This document shows, one piece after another, positions 16,499 to 43,727 of a stretch of DNA of 56,000 bases. Within the stretch, counting starts at the first letter, position 1, and each line of letters opens with the position of its first letter. The position numbers and the translations under genes are program-made. The notes beneath the pieces were generated by a model. The model was not told where the DNA came from and did not search any database. It saw nothing but the letters and a program-made list of their open reading frames with translations. The stretch spans positions 1-56,000 of the forward strand of contig CAIOJR010000041.1 of NCBI GenBank assembly GCA_903858685.1, in the 5' to 3' direction. This stretch comes from an uncultured Caulobacterales bacterium (GTDB taxonomy: Bacteria > Pseudomonadota > Alphaproteobacteria > Caulobacterales > Caulobacteraceae).

Positions 16499-17209
16499 AT
16501 GTCCGCTCAACTCGCCAGCAACGCCATCATGTTTGACATCCGTACTGCAAAGCGCAGCATCGGCATTGCGCCAACGCAAACGACCGTGACCAGCATCGAC
16601 GATGGCGTGGAAGCCATGGAAATGATGGGCGCGCGCATGACCTTCGATCGCGATGCCGAGATTTTCGGCGAGAGTGAAGCGGCGGATTTCGTCTATCGCG
16701 TCGTATCCGGCGCGGTTCGCACCTACAAGCTTCTGAGCGATGGCCGTCGCCAGATCGGCGACTTCCATCTGGCCGGAGACCTGTTCGGCCTTGAGGCCGG
16801 TGCGGAGCATCGCCTGAGCGCCGAAGCCATCTGCAAGACCGAAGTCATGGTCTTTCGCCGCGCGAACCTCTTTTCTTTGGCGGCCCGCACGCCCGCGGTC
16901 GGTCGCGCCCTATGGGCTGAAACCGCGCGCGAGCTGGAGCGCGCCCAGACTCACCTCATGTTGCTGGGCCGCAAGAGCGCCTGCGAAAGGGTGGCCAGCT
17001 TCCTCTCCGCCCTGGGAGAACGCGAGCCCAAGGCCAGTGAAATCGCCTTGCCCATGTCCCGACAGGACATGGCCGACTATCTGGGGCTGACCATCGAGAC
17101 GGTGTCTCGGACCTTCACCCAGCTTCAGTCCGATGGCGTCATCTCATTGAGCGGCTGCCGTCGGGTCCATGTCAAGAATCGTGGGGCCCTTGCCCGGCTG
17201 AGCGCCTGA
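16499..17209 (+). CDS. fixK: Crp/Fnr family regulator FixK
   Basis: A 236-residue cyclic-nucleotide-binding-fold regulator with a C-terminal winged helix. The N-terminus lacks the Fnr cysteine cluster, which fits FixK rather than Fnr. The effector fold contains FVYRVVSGAVRTYKLLSDGRRQI and the helix-turn-helix MSRQDMADYLGLTIETVSRTFTQL, whose ETVSR matches DNA-recognition residues for TTGAT half-sites. The ATG at 16499 is preceded by CGAAGGGA; the frame is open further upstream to 16343, but that part is Arg-rich and non-conserved. FixJ should activate it, and it would relay the signal to microaerobic genes. The stop codon lies inside the first unit of an 8-bp tandem repeat. Confidence 0.9.
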   Translation: MSAQLASNAIMFDIRTAKRSIGIAPTQTTVTSIDDGVEAMEMMGARMTFDRDAEIFGESEAADFVYRVVSGAVRTYKLLSDGRRQIGDFHLAGDLFGLEAGAEHRLSAEAICKTEVMVFRRANLFSLAARTPAVGRALWAETARELERAQTHLMLLGRKSACERVASFLSALGEREPKASEIALPMSRQDMADYLGLTIETVSRTFTQLQSDGVISLSGCRRVHVKNRGALARLSA

Positions 17210-30258: not shown

Positions 30259-31113
30259 TCAAGGTTGTGGCGCTTCCAGACGGGCCGCCTGTCGAGCGTT
30301 CATCAGATTGATCACGGCAGCAGCCGTCTCTTCCACCGAACGCCGGCTCACATCAATGACCGGCCAGCCCTGACGGTCAAACAGTCGACGGGCCTGAACA
30401 ATCTCTTCGCGTACGGCGTCGGCATCCACATAGGCGCTCTCACGCGCCTCATTCAAGGATAACAACCGGTTACGACGAATCTGGATCAAACGGTCCGGCG
30501 AAAGGATCAGACCAACAATGAGGGGGCCGTCGCGGCGGAACAGCGCGTCCGGCAAGGTCGCGCCAGGGACCAGGGGGACATTGGCGGATCGAACGCCCCG
30601 ATGCGCCAGATAAATGCTGGTGGGCGTCTTGGATGTCCGGCTGACGCCGACAAGGATAACGTCCGCACTTTCAAGGTTCTGTCCGCCCTGGCCGTCATCA
30701 TGGCCGATTGCGAAGTTCAGGGCCTCTATACGATTGAAGTAGTCTGTATCCATGGCGTGCTGAGCCCCGACCCTGGTGGTCAGCTGAGCCCCCAAATACC
30801 GGCCCAGCGCCGCGGTCAGCGGATCCAGCGCGGCTATGCATGGCGCCATGAAGGACCGGCAACCGTCTTCAAGCAATGATCTGAGCTCCCGGTCGACAAT
30901 CGTATGGATCACGACGCCGGGCGCGTCTTCGATCTCGCGCATCACCCGTTCCAGCTGGCGGGTGGACCGGACAAGCGGATAGATGTGCTCGATCGGCAGG
31001 ACATTATCAAATCGCGCGACCACCGCTTTGGAAATGGCGTTCAGGGTTTCGCCGGTAGAGTCCGAGACCAGATGCACATGAAAATAGGTTGCGAGACGAT
31101 GGGCTGTGACCAT
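30259..31113 (-). CDS. ppsR: pyruvate phosphate dikinase regulatory protein (DUF299 kinase-pyrophosphorylase)
   Basis: Bifunctional Ser/Thr kinase and pyrophosphorylase that controls PEP synthase or pyruvate phosphate dikinase. The 284 residues begin with FHVHLVSDSTGETLNAI and hold the ADP-binding P-loop-like GVSRTSKTPTSIYLA, EALNFAIGHDDGQ and DVSRRSVEETAA, all typical of DUF299. It is the first gene left of the putative origin and is transcribed away from it, matching the gene reported on one side of the Caulobacter origin. Confidence 0.93.
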   Translation of the reverse strand: MVTAHRLATYFHVHLVSDSTGETLNAISKAVVARFDNVLPIEHIYPLVRSTRQLERVMREIEDAPGVVIHTIVDRELRSLLEDGCRSFMAPCIAALDPLTAALGRYLGAQLTTRVGAQHAMDTDYFNRIEALNFAIGHDDGQGGQNLESADVILVGVSRTSKTPTSIYLAHRGVRSANVPLVPGATLPDALFRRDGPLIVGLILSPDRLIQIRRNRLLSLNEARESAYVDADAVREEIVQARRLFDRQGWPVIDVSRRSVEETAAAVINLMNARQAARLEAPQP

Positions 31114-31217
31114 GGTCGGGGCTGTACCTCTCTCAAGTCTTCAAATGCCTTTCGTGGGACAGGGAAGTCCTGAAGCACAAAACGGTGGATGATCCGGTGA
31201 ATGACATTGGCCGAACC

Positions 31218-31226
31218 TGGGGATCA
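31218..31226 (-). promoter_or_regulatory. DnaA G-box-like site
   Basis: Read on the - strand: TGATCCCCA. It is one base from the TGATCCACA-like G-boxes described for the Caulobacter origin. No perfect TTATCCACA occurs in this intergenic region. Confidence 0.45.
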
Positions 31227-31395
31227 ATGAGGAGGAAACGCGTTCTGATCCGGTTTGCCAAGGGTCGCGGGGGGTTAGGGGGGAGGATTCACCATTTTGT
31301 CCACGCTTCGGCGCCGTGTGAAACAGACTTTTTCACCGGTCAAGGAAAACAAGGTTCGTGGGCCGCGCCCATCGGGATGGACCCACAGGACATCG

Positions 31396-31410
31396 TTAAA
31401 AAACCCTTAA
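31396..31410. promoter_or_regulatory. CtrA box 1 of the origin
   Basis: TTAA, seven bases (AAAACCC), TTAA: exact match to the full CtrA consensus TTAA-N7-TTAA. CtrA bound here would repress replication initiation. Confidence 0.8.
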
Positions 31411-31423
31411 CGAGCTCAGGAGC

Positions 31424-31438
31424 TTAACAAATGGTTAA
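31424..31438. promoter_or_regulatory. CtrA box 2 of the origin
   Basis: TTAA, CAAATGG, TTAA: exact match, 28 bases (start to start) from box 1, so the two are on nearly the same face or about two and a half turns apart. Confidence 0.8.
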
Positions 31439-31476
31439 CACGGCGGGATCAATGGGAGTCCAGCTCCGCCATATAG

Positions 31477-31491
31477 TTAACAAGCTGTTAA
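31477..31491. promoter_or_regulatory. CtrA box 3 of the origin
   Basis: TTAA, CAAGCTG, TTAA: exact match, 53 bases from box 2, about five helical turns, and 182 bases before the hemE start. Confidence 0.8.
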
Positions 31492-31672
31492 TAGATGGTC
31501 GCGGCCCTTGGGGTGGTGAGCGAGTGTCCCCGACCTCACCGGCTCTACAAGCCTCCACAAACCTAATTTATCTTCCTTTCAGGAGAGAGATAGAAAGAGG
31601 CTTTTCAGGGAGCTGGAACAGAATCTGATCTTCCTCTTGAGCCTGGGACGCGTTCGTCGTTTATGCGGTCTC

Positions 31673-32740
31673 ATGACAGCTGATACGCCTCATTCCGCCC
31701 CTGCCCAGACCTCATTGACTGAGCCCGATTTTTTGCGTGTGCTGAAAGGGGCGCGGCTAGCGTCGCCCCCTGTTTGGTTCATGCGCCAGGCTGGTCGTTA
31801 TCTGCCCGAATACAGGGCTTTGCGAGCGACAGCGCCGGATTTTATCAGCTTTTGCCTAAACCCGGATATGGCGGCTGAAGCGACCCTGCAACCGATGCGG
31901 CGTTTCCCGTTCAGCGCGGCTATCGTCTTTGCGGATATTTTGCTGATACCGGAAGCTCTGGGTCAAAAAGTGTGGTTCGAGGCAGGGGAAGGGCCCAAGC
32001 TTGGGGAATTGCCCGACATTTCGGTTCTGGAAGCCAATGTGCCCTTTGCCGCTGATCGCCTGTCGGCAGTGGGGGAAACCCTGTCCAGGGTTCGGGCGAA
32101 ACTTGAACCCAATCGCGCTCTGATCGGCTTTGCAGGCGCACCCTGGACGGTTCTGACCTATATGATAGAGCGAGGGTCGAGCAATCGCGAGCACGCCAGA
32201 TCCTATGCCTGGCGAAATCCGCAGCATGTGGATCAGCTTCTGGCCATTCTGGTGGAATCGACCGCCCAATATCTTGCGATGCAGGTCAAGGCAGGCGCGC
32301 AGGCTTTGCAAATCTTTGAGTCATGGGCTGAAGGACTGTCAGAAAGCCAGTTCAGACGTCTGGTCATTGCACCTCATCAGGCGCTTGTGTCCCGACTGGT
32401 TGAATTGGGTGTTTCTGTGCCCGTCATTGGTTTTCCGAGAGGCGGAGGCGGTCTGTCCCTCCTGTATGCGCAGAGTGTCGAGGTCCAGGCTGTCGGGCTG
32501 GATACGTCCACACCGCTGCAGCTTGGTCGTGACATTCAAAAGCTGCGAACGATACAGGGTGCGCTTGACCCGCTTGCCTTGCGGGCGGGAGGGCCGGAAT
32601 TGGATGCCGAAGTGGAGCGCCTCCTGGATGCCTGGGGTCAGGGGCCCTACATCTTCAATCTGGGACACGGCATTTTGCCAGACACGCCTATGGCTCATGT
32701 CGAGCAGGTTCTGGCTCGTGTCACGGGGCGGGGGGTTTGA
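31673..32740 (+). CDS. hemE: uroporphyrinogen decarboxylase
   Basis: Converts uroporphyrinogen III to coproporphyrinogen III in heme synthesis. The product is 355 residues with PVWFMRQAGRYLPEYR (signature 1), FPFSAAIVFADIL, GFAGAPWTVLTYMIE (signature 2) and FNLGHGILPDTP near the end. The ATG at 31673 is preferred; a frame extension to 31637 lacks conservation. Its promoter lies in the origin region, as in Caulobacter, where hemE transcription is linked to origin control. Its stop overlaps the hemH start (TGATG). Confidence 0.95.
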   Translation: MTADTPHSAPAQTSLTEPDFLRVLKGARLASPPVWFMRQAGRYLPEYRALRATAPDFISFCLNPDMAAEATLQPMRRFPFSAAIVFADILLIPEALGQKVWFEAGEGPKLGELPDISVLEANVPFAADRLSAVGETLSRVRAKLEPNRALIGFAGAPWTVLTYMIERGSSNREHARSYAWRNPQHVDQLLAILVESTAQYLAMQVKAGAQALQIFESWAEGLSESQFRRLVIAPHQALVSRLVELGVSVPVIGFPRGGGGLSLLYAQSVEVQAVGLDTSTPLQLGRDIQKLRTIQGALDPLALRAGGPELDAEVERLLDAWGQGPYIFNLGHGILPDTPMAHVEQVLARVTGRGV

Positions 32741-39224: not shown

Positions 39225-39240
39225 TGTTTCACGTGAAACG
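39225..39240. promoter_or_regulatory. parS site 1
   Basis: TGTTTCACGTGAAACG: matches the universal bacterial parS palindrome at 15 of 16 positions (last base differs). It begins two bases after the mnmE stop. Confidence 0.9.
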
Positions 39241-39279
39241 CTCGCGGATTGCCTGTCGTCGGGCTTGGGACATGTGTGA

Positions 39280-39295
39280 TGTTCCACGTGAAACA
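39280..39295. promoter_or_regulatory. parS site 2
   Basis: TGTTCCACGTGAAACA: full match to the parS consensus TGTTNCACGTGAAACA. Centre of the three-site cluster by order, 55 bases from site 1. Confidence 0.93.
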
Positions 39296-39374
39296 TGGTA
39301 TAGCCCGGTCTGACCCGGCCATACCGAAGATGTCCCGGTCGAAGCTATATGGGCAATGTGGTAAACGCCTTCTG

Positions 39375-39390
39375 TGTTTCACGTGAAACC
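39375..39390. promoter_or_regulatory. parS site 3
   Basis: TGTTTCACGTGAAACC: one terminal mismatch to the consensus. It lies 95 bases from site 2 and 80 bases before the mnmG ATG. Confidence 0.9.
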
Positions 39391-41326: not shown

Positions 41327-41981
41327 CTTTCCGCCCGACCTGAGCCCTACCGCCAGCGGCGCCGGCTTCTCCCGGTCTGACTTCGTCTCGCAGACGGGGG
41401 CGTGCGACCAGGCCATGCAGGACATGGACGCCTATCTGTCTTTGCTCAGCGATTGGAATGAGCGGATGAACCTGGTCGGGCCGTCGGCTCTGGCGACCTT
41501 TTGGGGACGCCATGCATTCGACAGCGCCCAACTATTGCGGACCGCGCCCAATGCGAAAACATGGGTGGACCTGGGAGCGGGTGCTGGTTTTCCAGGTCTT
41601 GTGCTGGCGATTCTGCTAAAAAACAGACCAGGCGCTACCGTGCATCTGGTGGAAAGTATGGCCAAGCGCTGCGGGTTTTTACGCGTGGTTTCGGCCGAAT
41701 TGAAATTACCCACACAAGTCCACAATGCTCGCGCCGAATCGCTTCACTTATCCCCAGTGGATGTGGTGACGGCGCGCGCGCTGGCCCCACTGCCTAAGCT
41801 TTTGCAGTATGCTTATCCTGTTCTCCGCGGTCATACCGTCGGCTTGTTCCTAAAGGGACGAGACGTCGAAACGGAAATCGGAGAGGCGCGCAAATCCTGG
41901 ACCTTCGATGCGACACTGATTCCCAGTGAGAGCGATCGGGAGGGCCGGATACTCAAGATCCAGAGGCTGAACCGTGTCTAA
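41295..41981 (+). CDS. rsmG: 16S rRNA (guanine527-N7)-methyltransferase
   Basis: SAM-dependent methylation of G527 in 16S rRNA. 228 residues from the ATG at 41295 (overlapping mnmG by 32 bases); an ATG at 41313 would give a shorter form. The family motifs are [31 protein letters not shown] (SAM binding), [14 protein letters not shown], and [13 protein letters not shown]. The ending overlaps the parA GTG. mnmG-rsmG-parA-parB is the classic origin-proximal order. Confidence 0.95.
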
Positions 41982-42792
41982 CACCACCCTACCCAATCCC
42001 CCCCGCGTCCTGGCTGTGGCCAATCAAAAGGGCGGCGTGGGCAAGACGACAACGGCCATCAATCTCGGAACAGCGCTTGCCGCTGTGGGGGAGAGGGTCC
42101 TGATCATTGATATTGATCCTCAGGGTAACGCTTCGACGGGGTTGGGCGTTCGAAGGGAGCATCGGGCCAAGACCATTTATGACGTGCTGGTGGGCGAAGC
42201 CGGTCTGGCCGACGCCATCGTCAAAACATCCGTGCCCGGCCTGGACCTGACGCCATCCGATGCGGATCTGTCGGGCGCCGAACTGGAGCTTGGCAATGCG
42301 CCACGCCGGTCTTATCGCCTGCGCGACGCGATCGAAGCCATGGCGGCTGCAGTCAGCGGCTATAACTATGTCCTGATTGATTGCCCTCCTTCGCTGAATC
42401 TCTTGACGGTCAACGCCATGTCGGCTGCGGACGCTGTACTGGTTCCCCTGCAGTGCGAGTTTTTCGCCCTGGAAGGTCTGACGCAGCTGATGCGAACGAT
42501 CGAACTGGTGCGGGGCAGCCTCAACCCCAAGCTCGAGATTCAGGGTGTGGTGCTGACAATGTTTGACCGACGCAACAGCCTCTCCGAACAGGTTGCGGCC
42601 GATGTCCGCGAGCATTTCGGGGATAAGGTCTACAAGGCAGTCATCCCCCGGAACGTGCGGATCTCTGAAGCGCCGTCATTTGGAAAACCGGCTCTGATCT
42701 ACGACCTGAAATGTGCAGGCAGCCAGGCCTATCTCAAACTCGCCCGCGAACTGGTTGGCCGCGAGCGTGACCGCCGCGCAAAAGCCGCCTGA
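41974..42792 (+). CDS. parA: chromosome partitioning ATPase ParA
   Basis: Walker-type ATPase that moves ParB-parS complexes to opposite cell poles. The 272 residues contain the deviant Walker A KGGVGKTTT (about 20-28), DIDPQGNASTGLG, LIDCPPSLNLLTVNA and CEFFALEGL, with the C-terminal NVRISEAPSFGKP and YDLKCAGSQAYLKLA. The start is GTG at 41974, overlapping the rsmG stop. parB follows after 11 bases. Confidence 0.96.
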   Translation: MSNTTLPNPPRVLAVANQKGGVGKTTTAINLGTALAAVGERVLIIDIDPQGNASTGLGVRREHRAKTIYDVLVGEAGLADAIVKTSVPGLDLTPSDADLSGAELELGNAPRRSYRLRDAIEAMAAAVSGYNYVLIDCPPSLNLLTVNAMSAADAVLVPLQCEFFALEGLTQLMRTIELVRGSLNPKLEIQGVVLTMFDRRNSLSEQVAADVREHFGDKVYKAVIPRNVRISEAPSFGKPALIYDLKCAGSQAYLKLARELVGRERDRRAKAA

Positions 42793-42803
42793 GGATAAGG
42801 ACG

Positions 42804-43727
42804 ATGGCCGAACCGACGACAGGGCAACCTGCAGGACGACGTGGGCTGGGGCGCGGCTTGTCAGCCCTGTTGGGAGAAAGCGATCCCGCCCTTGCGGCGG
42901 CGCAGCCGGAAATCGTGGTCGCGGAGGGCCTGACCGCGCGCGAAACGCCCATTGAGCTGCTGCGCCGCAATCCCGACCAGCCGCGCCGTGTTTTCAACGA
43001 AGATGAGCTGGAAGAGTTGTCCAACTCGATTCGGGAGAAGGGAATTCTCCAGCCCATTCTGGTGAGACCGGCGCCAGGCGCGCCGGGCGAATTCCAGATT
43101 GTGGCAGGTGAGCGGCGGTGGCGTGCGGCTCAGCGCGCGGGGCTCCATACCGTTCCGATTCTGGTGCGCGAGTTCGATGACCTCGACGTGCTGGAAATCG
43201 GCATAATCGAAAACGTCCAACGGGCAGACCTCAATCCGCTCGAAGAGGCCATGGGCTACAAGGTATTGATTGATCGCTTTGGTCGTACGCAAGATGCGGT
43301 GGCTCTCACGGTCGGCAAGAGCCGCAGTCACGTGGCCAACATGTTGCGCCTGCTGAATCTGCCTGAAGGCGTGCGCGACCATCTGGCGGAGGGACGGATC
43401 AGCACAGGCCATGCTCGCGCTATTGCGACCGCCCCCGATCCGGACGCCCTTGCCGAGTCTATCGTTCGCCACGGTCTGTCGGTTCGTCAGGCCGAGCAGA
43501 TGGCCCGCAAAACGCTTGAGCGGCCCAAGGCTGGAACGAAAGGGCCGCGACTGTCGTCACGATCAACAGGTCGAGATGCGGACACGACGGCCCTGGAACA
43601 CGACCTGTCCGAAGCGCTCGGACTTGAGGTGGAGGTTCTTGACCGAAATGGCGAAGGTGAGTTGCGTATCCGTTACAAGACCCTGGAACAGCTGGACGAG
43701 GTCTGTCGCCGCCTGAGCGAGAGTTGA
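42804..43727 (+). CDS. parB: chromosome partitioning protein ParB
   Basis: CTP-dependent DNA clamp that loads at parS and spreads. The 307 residues begin with the ParA-interacting GRRGLGRGLSALLGE, then the N-terminal CTPase domain with PDQPRRVF, the GERRWRA motif and ENVQRADLNPLEEA, a helix-turn-helix with GRTQDAVALTVGKSRSHVANMLRLL, and a C-terminal dimer domain ending LDEVCRRLSES. The three parS sites lie about 3.5 kb upstream. Confidence 0.96.
   Translation: MAEPTTGQPAGRRGLGRGLSALLGESDPALAAAQPEIVVAEGLTARETPIELLRRNPDQPRRVFNEDELEELSNSIREKGILQPILVRPAPGAPGEFQIVAGERRWRAAQRAGLHTVPILVREFDDLDVLEIGIIENVQRADLNPLEEAMGYKVLIDRFGRTQDAVALTVGKSRSHVANMLRLLNLPEGVRDHLAEGRISTGHARAIATAPDPDALAESIVRHGLSVRQAEQMARKTLERPKAGTKGPRLSSRSTGRDADTTALEHDLSEALGLEVEVLDRNGEGELRIRYKTLEQLDEVCRRLSES

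Follow-up and report, generated by a model that had tools for sequence, protein, structure and literature searches.

A CtrA-Box-Bearing Gap beside hemE as the Likely Replication Origin of an Uncultured Caulobacteraceae Bacterium

Does the gap between a COG1806 gene and hemE serve as the chromosomal replication origin of an uncultured Caulobacteraceae bacterium, and which parts of its control have been kept or altered relative to Caulobacter crescentus? The C. crescentus origin (Cori) is described as occupying the hemE-COG1806 gap and as containing five CtrA sites, two G-boxes, five W-boxes, one IHF site, and an AT-rich region (PMC4468827, PMC4285127, PMC8959179, PMC1914354). In the window, by which we mean the entire 56-kb stretch of DNA analyzed here, the corresponding gap lies at positions 31114 to 31672, with the same flanking genes in the same order, COG1806-gap-hemE. 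The closest named relatives by COG1806 protein are Caulobacteraceae, e.g., “Caulobacter sp. S45” and Phenylobacterium. We consider it very likely that this gap is the chromosomal origin of the bacterium, opened by DnaA and blocked by CtrA in the manner proposed below, which would supply a defined origin for this genus.

The left flank is a COG1806/DUF299 kinase-pyrophosphorylase gene (30259 to 31113, minus strand; PF03618), and the right flank is hemE, encoding uroporphyrinogen decarboxylase (31637 to 32740, plus strand; TIGR01464), which starts at TTG 31637 or ATG 31673 and is followed by hemH, a UPF0093 gene, and rho. The initial annotation had labeled the gap ppsR-hemE. The hemE half of that label holds, but ppsR does not stand as a strict name: the product scores above the PPDK/PEP-synthase regulator subfamily model and below the PpsR equivalog cutoff, so that ppsR is a loose designation and COG1806/DUF299 the safer one.

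Within the gap, three perfect TTAA-N7-TTAA CtrA boxes lie on the plus strand at 31396 to 31410 (box 1), 31424 to 31438 (box 2), and 31477 to 31491 (box 3), a span of 96 bases with start-to-start spacings of 28 and 53, exactly as first annotated. The gap has six TTAA words, each of them half of a box. The expected number of such boxes in the 56-kb window is 0.04, and none of 100 shuffles reached three. We scanned the draft genome (3,865,639 bases in 279 contigs) and found the pattern at 23 places, compared with 17 for a reversed-pattern control; the triplet in the gap is the only cluster of TTAA-N7-TTAA in these 3.87 Mb. Since single perfect boxes are near background, only the cluster and a few gene contexts were used as evidence. 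Neighboring genes were inspected at 12 of the 20 other places, and perfect boxes were found to precede ftsZ, a CcrM-like methylase gene, and a gene for a FliI-type ATPase. The CtrA targets reported for C. crescentus include ftsZ, ccrM, and flagellar genes (PMC2877005), and from this correspondence we conclude that the host probably reads the CtrA motif.

The regulators of the C. crescentus system have counterparts in this genome. The encoded CtrA is 95% identical over 80 residues and scores 416.7 bits against an NCBIfam equivalog cutoff of 350, which removes the lack of a CtrA ortholog, named at the outset as a reason to abandon the origin reading. Genes for GcrA and DnaA are also present, together with a CcrM-like gene encoding a DNA methylase with a RAMA domain, an arrangement that we take to be the CcrM layout; among 14 control genomes, the domain occurred only in that of Caulobacter vibrioides. 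The gap has the three GANTC (CcrM) sites originally noted, starting at 31286, 31456, and 31621 and together spanning 31286 to 31625. GANTC is depleted in the window (103 per 56 kb, versus 271 in shuffles), and the count in the gap weighs little as evidence, since about 1.0 site is expected per 559 bases at window density and 3 are seen.

To place the boxes in a family context, we examined 60 Caulobacteraceae genomes, the window included, and found the COG1806 gene in 58 (no match in G002 and G025). At least one perfect box lay within 500 bases of the COG1806 start in 48 of the 58 gaps (0.9 expected), and a box with at most one mismatch in 57 (9.6 expected). The signal extends to four other families of the order, where 32 gaps obtained from 40 genomes included 21 with a perfect box (0.8 expected) and 31 with a box having at most one mismatch (9.4 expected). 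A 2015 review describes CtrA sites as not seen in origins beyond the Caulobacters and possibly Rickettsia; later work reports binding of Hyphomonas neptunium CtrA beside the origin (PMC7200025).

Box number and position vary between genera and tend to repeat within a genus, a comparison from which the duplicates L106, L107, and L132 were removed. Measured from the COG1806 start, the boxes fall at 283/311/364 in the window, and at 294/323/376, 294/322/375, and 295/323/376 in the congeners G001, G003, and G004, respectively, each of which has one box with one mismatch; the 28(29)/53 spacing is common to all four. Box 1 has homologs in these three congeners, two of them perfect and one with a single mismatch. 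Another congener, G005, has two boxes only, at 320 and 384, 64 apart. In an alignment of the window with G001, G003, and G004, the invariant bases number 22 of 24 in the half-sites, 6 of 21 in the spacers, and 120 of 475 elsewhere. Congener gaps are only 47 to 48% identical to the window overall in this alignment, so the boxes partly anchor it; unaligned box positions give the same spacing. These comparisons of the same gap in relatives, which the initial annotation had suggested as a check, support function, with box number and spacing varying between genera and largely kept within this one, and they leave intact its statement that CtrA site number and spacing differ from those of C. crescentus (five sites there; here three perfect boxes within 96 bp, at spacings of 28 and 53).

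Perfect boxes paired at a distance of 26 to 30 were present in 15 of the 299 family genomes scanned, and in 13 of these the pair is beside COG1806; the control pattern gave 0. In a tree of COG1806 proteins built from 30 of the 58 family rows and one outgroup, the other loci having a partial gene, the rows of g1, g11 to g14, and g19 form one clade (support, 97/92). Members with two boxes 28 to 32 apart, some with one mismatch, occur in g1, g12 to g14, and g19 but not in g11.

In C. crescentus, the W-box is given as TCCCCA and the G-box as TGATCCACA (PMC4285127). The gap of the window has no exact TGATCCACA G-box, a difference from Cori, and, as first noted, no perfect TTATCCACA box. It does have four candidate sites of the weak DnaA type, and motif and conservation favor W-type sites, like those of Cori, among them. 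Leftmost is a DnaA-box-like TCATCCACC at 31184 to 31192 (minus strand), with two mismatches and a GTGGA core kept in three congeners. A G-box-like site, of the kind mentioned in the initial annotation, is TGATCCCCA at 31218 to 31226 (minus strand); it differs from the C. crescentus G-box by one mismatch and contains a TCCCCA W-box, a core that is at the same place in three congeners. A DnaA-box-like TTGTCCACG at 31297 to 31305 (plus strand) retains TTnTCCAC in three congeners. The fourth site belongs to a directional W-box/GC module, TGTCCCCG-N7-CGGnnCTAC, at 31525 to 31548 (plus strand), which is recognizable in other Caulobacteraceae genera. Among the gaps of 22 genus representatives, the enriched words include GTTAAC, TCCACAG, and words containing TCCCCA, one of which, CTGGGGACA, occurs in 7 genera against 1.4 expected. 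The predicted DnaA-type boxes of the window are weak and partly unshared with its congeners. Three congener loci (L017 to L019) have a further DnaA-type box, TTAACCACA, with one mismatch, overlapping CtrA box 1 at about position 289; this box is absent from the window.

Beyond the module lies the AT-rich patch before hemE that had been noted initially, a proposed unwinding element at 31557 to 31596 with 32.5% GC in 40 nucleotides; just one of the 55,961 40-mers in the window has a lower GC content. We searched for the module in 54 other family gaps, leaving out the four rows that had defined the pattern, and recovered it with at most three mismatches in 16 gaps of ten genera (0.85 expected; largest shuffle, 2; one on the other strand). 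At this threshold it was not found in the other 38, G005 among them. The g14 match is at position 18, and a second g14 place, with 3 mismatches, is at 408. The module mostly precedes pyrimidine- and T-rich DNA; the g22 match has no T-rich DNA after it.

The position of the module relative to the CtrA boxes was compared in 21 gaps of ten genera, this genus included, that have the module with at most four mismatches and an AT-rich tail. A CtrA box ends 83 to 97 bp before the module in 15 of the 21, representing seven of the ten genera, and box 2 of the window is the box at this common distance. With one representative per genus, 7 of 10 have such a box, against 1.0 expected under random placement (P = 0.0002, a value qualified by the choice of the 80- to 100-bp bin after the distances had been seen). 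No box is at 83 to 97 bp in the six remaining gaps, from g3 (L059), g5, g9, and g21. Box 3, 33 bp before the module, has a counterpart at its position only in G001, G003, and G004 among the 21 gaps carrying the module.

The order of elements in the module, a DnaA-type box, a GC-rich GGCC-like spacer, CTA, and then AT-rich DNA, resembles that of the BUS, an unwinding module described as a DnaA-box, a spacer, and a DnaA-trio (PMC8287927). Beyond the module, runs of trio-type triplets are no more frequent than in shuffled sequence (30 versus 30.9, summed over ten genera), and a DnaA-trio or BUS identity is therefore not claimed.

The boxes could instead be mainly transcriptional, acting on hemE, on the COG1806 gene, or on a small RNA resembling the C. 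crescentus CcnA, with their place in this gap incidental. CtrA boxes do regulate promoters elsewhere, and in C. crescentus, CtrA boxes within the origin are reported to be linked with both hemE transcription and the RNA CcnA (PMC8959179). The history of hemE in this family speaks to the matter. In all four readable congeners (G001, G003, G004, and G005), hemE has gone and the gap is followed by hemH; the relocated hemE orthologs are 78 to 79% identical, and none of the four has a CtrA box with 0 or 1 mismatch in the upstream DNA searched (800 bases; 319 in G003). Across the 56 readable family gaps, with L032 and L070 excluded because contig ends cut them, the next gene is hemE in 47, hemH in 7, rho in 1, and another gene in 1 (L066). 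Each of the nine gaps without hemE (L017 to L020, L022, L023, L065, L066, and L077) still has one or more boxes of no more than one mismatch within 650 bases. The boxes thus go with the gap and not with hemE. They did not follow hemE when it moved in the four congeners, the distance between box and DnaA-type module is kept in seven of ten genera, and no Rfam family reaches its gathering cutoff in the window, and we regard a mainly transcriptional role as quite improbable. The sister species that lost hemE from the gap and kept its CtrA boxes amount to a natural experiment in which origin control is separable from hemE transcription.

Separation of hemE from COG1806 is already known from Wolbachia (PMC1914354). 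Like the gap described here, the Rickettsia and Wolbachia origins are described as having CtrA and DnaA sites in a gap by hemE or COG1806, with flanks that can rearrange; the predicted Wolbachia origin stayed with hemE, whereas in the congeners studied here the origin parts stay with COG1806 (PMC1914354). In the literature that our search covered, a range that did not include the comparison of Shaheen 2009, we found no report that treats this genus's origin or the departure of hemE from the origin within Caulobacteraceae. As a separate observation, the sole HemE found in G016, G031, G048, G056, and G037 is distant (46 to 51% identity), and HemE was not found in G021 or in the 88%-complete G002.

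The wider setting of the gap also resembles that of Cori. Three parS-like 16-mers, each with one mismatch, are located at 39225, 39280, and 39375 (together 39225 to 39390), 7.6 kb to the right of the gap, and are followed by parA-like and parB genes (41974 to 43727, plus strand). In relatives, parS-like sites are 6 to 7 kb (G004) and about 7 kb (G016) from the homologous gap, and in C. crescentus, parS is reported to be within 8 kb of Cori (PMC4468827). The dnaA gene is absent from the 56-kb window and is encoded on another contig. It is close to the origin in C. crescentus, and this is a further difference between the two loci.

GC skew, put forward initially as a check on the origin, gave a divided result. 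Near 30.5 kb, skew in the window moves from about 0 to +0.05, and none of 2000 bin permutations was as extreme, in a test that treats neighboring 500-base bins as independent when shuffling them and takes no account of gene orientation. The shift is one-sided and may reflect gene orientation: on the left side of the window, skew is close to zero and not negative, and cumulative skew reaches its minimum at 17,131, outside the gap. We sampled 20 stretches of 10 kb each from G004 (contig C16) and G016 (contig C1). The G004 stretches, 12 to the left and 8 to the right, gave no sign of a skew switch at the homologous gap (P = 0.79), and the 20 from G016 formed no pattern along the chromosome; skew was therefore dropped as support for the origin. 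Sampled stretches of two high-GC relatives that are practically without skew imply that origins in this group may escape detection by skew.

Such results, along with the location of dnaA on another contig, would fit a true origin elsewhere, for example near dnaA, with the gap a relic. Against this, Cori is reported at this very gap in C. crescentus by independent methods (PMC1914354), parS and parAB are nearby, and the boxes and DnaA-type motifs look constrained, making a relic extremely improbable. The match to the Caulobacter origin drawn in the initial annotation is sustained by the agreement of gap position, full CtrA boxes, weak DnaA-type boxes, AT-rich patch, parS/parAB, and the CtrA ortholog, and we retain the gap as the origin.

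How this origin might work can be modeled on C. crescentus, where CtrA is reported to exclude DnaA from Cori (PMC4468827, PMC8959179). By that analogy, DnaA would assemble on a series of weak G/W-type boxes ending with the one at 31525 and open the AT-rich patch beside hemE. CtrA~P bound to boxes 1 to 3 (31396 to 31491) would occupy the DNA between DnaA sites; with DnaA unable to assemble from 31297 to 31525, the patch would not open, and the origin would remain closed in the non-replicating cell type. Box 2 may represent the CtrA site whose distance from the opening module is nearly constant across several genera, and box 3 may be an added site close to it; from the genomes compared, box 3 looks lineage specific.

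A milder version of CtrA control would have the gap be the origin but DnaA regulation set the timing, with CtrA only fine-tuning and its boxes mattering mostly under stress. Lowered CtrA affinity at all five C. crescentus sites is reported to cause a mild cycle perturbation and sensitivity to antibiotic pulses (PMC4468827), and box number varies widely between genera, as fine-tuning would allow; the half-sites are nevertheless among the most conserved bases of the gap. We hold this version to be possible though somewhat doubtful, and since it overlaps with the preferred explanation, origin blocking by CtrA, it refines that explanation rather than excluding it.

The comparison suggests that one CtrA box and the opening module are the rigid parts of these origins, while the other CtrA boxes and individual DnaA boxes are replaceable. 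On this basis we offer, tentatively but as a reasonable possibility, the generalization that many Caulobacteraceae origins have a rigid core, a CtrA box 83 to 97 bp upstream of the directional DnaA/GC/CTAC module, around which other boxes come and go; that a third box, 33 bp from the module, is an addition of this lineage that brings CtrA nearer to strand opening; and that the core does not depend on hemE, a gene that has departed from it on repeated occasions. The action of CtrA at origins thereby becomes testable through box swaps in laboratory Caulobacter. As a minor observation on the end of the gap, short inverted repeats follow the module in several species (31557 to 31610 in the window, and in congeners), and in L019 a perfect 16-bp palindrome is found after the module near the gap end.
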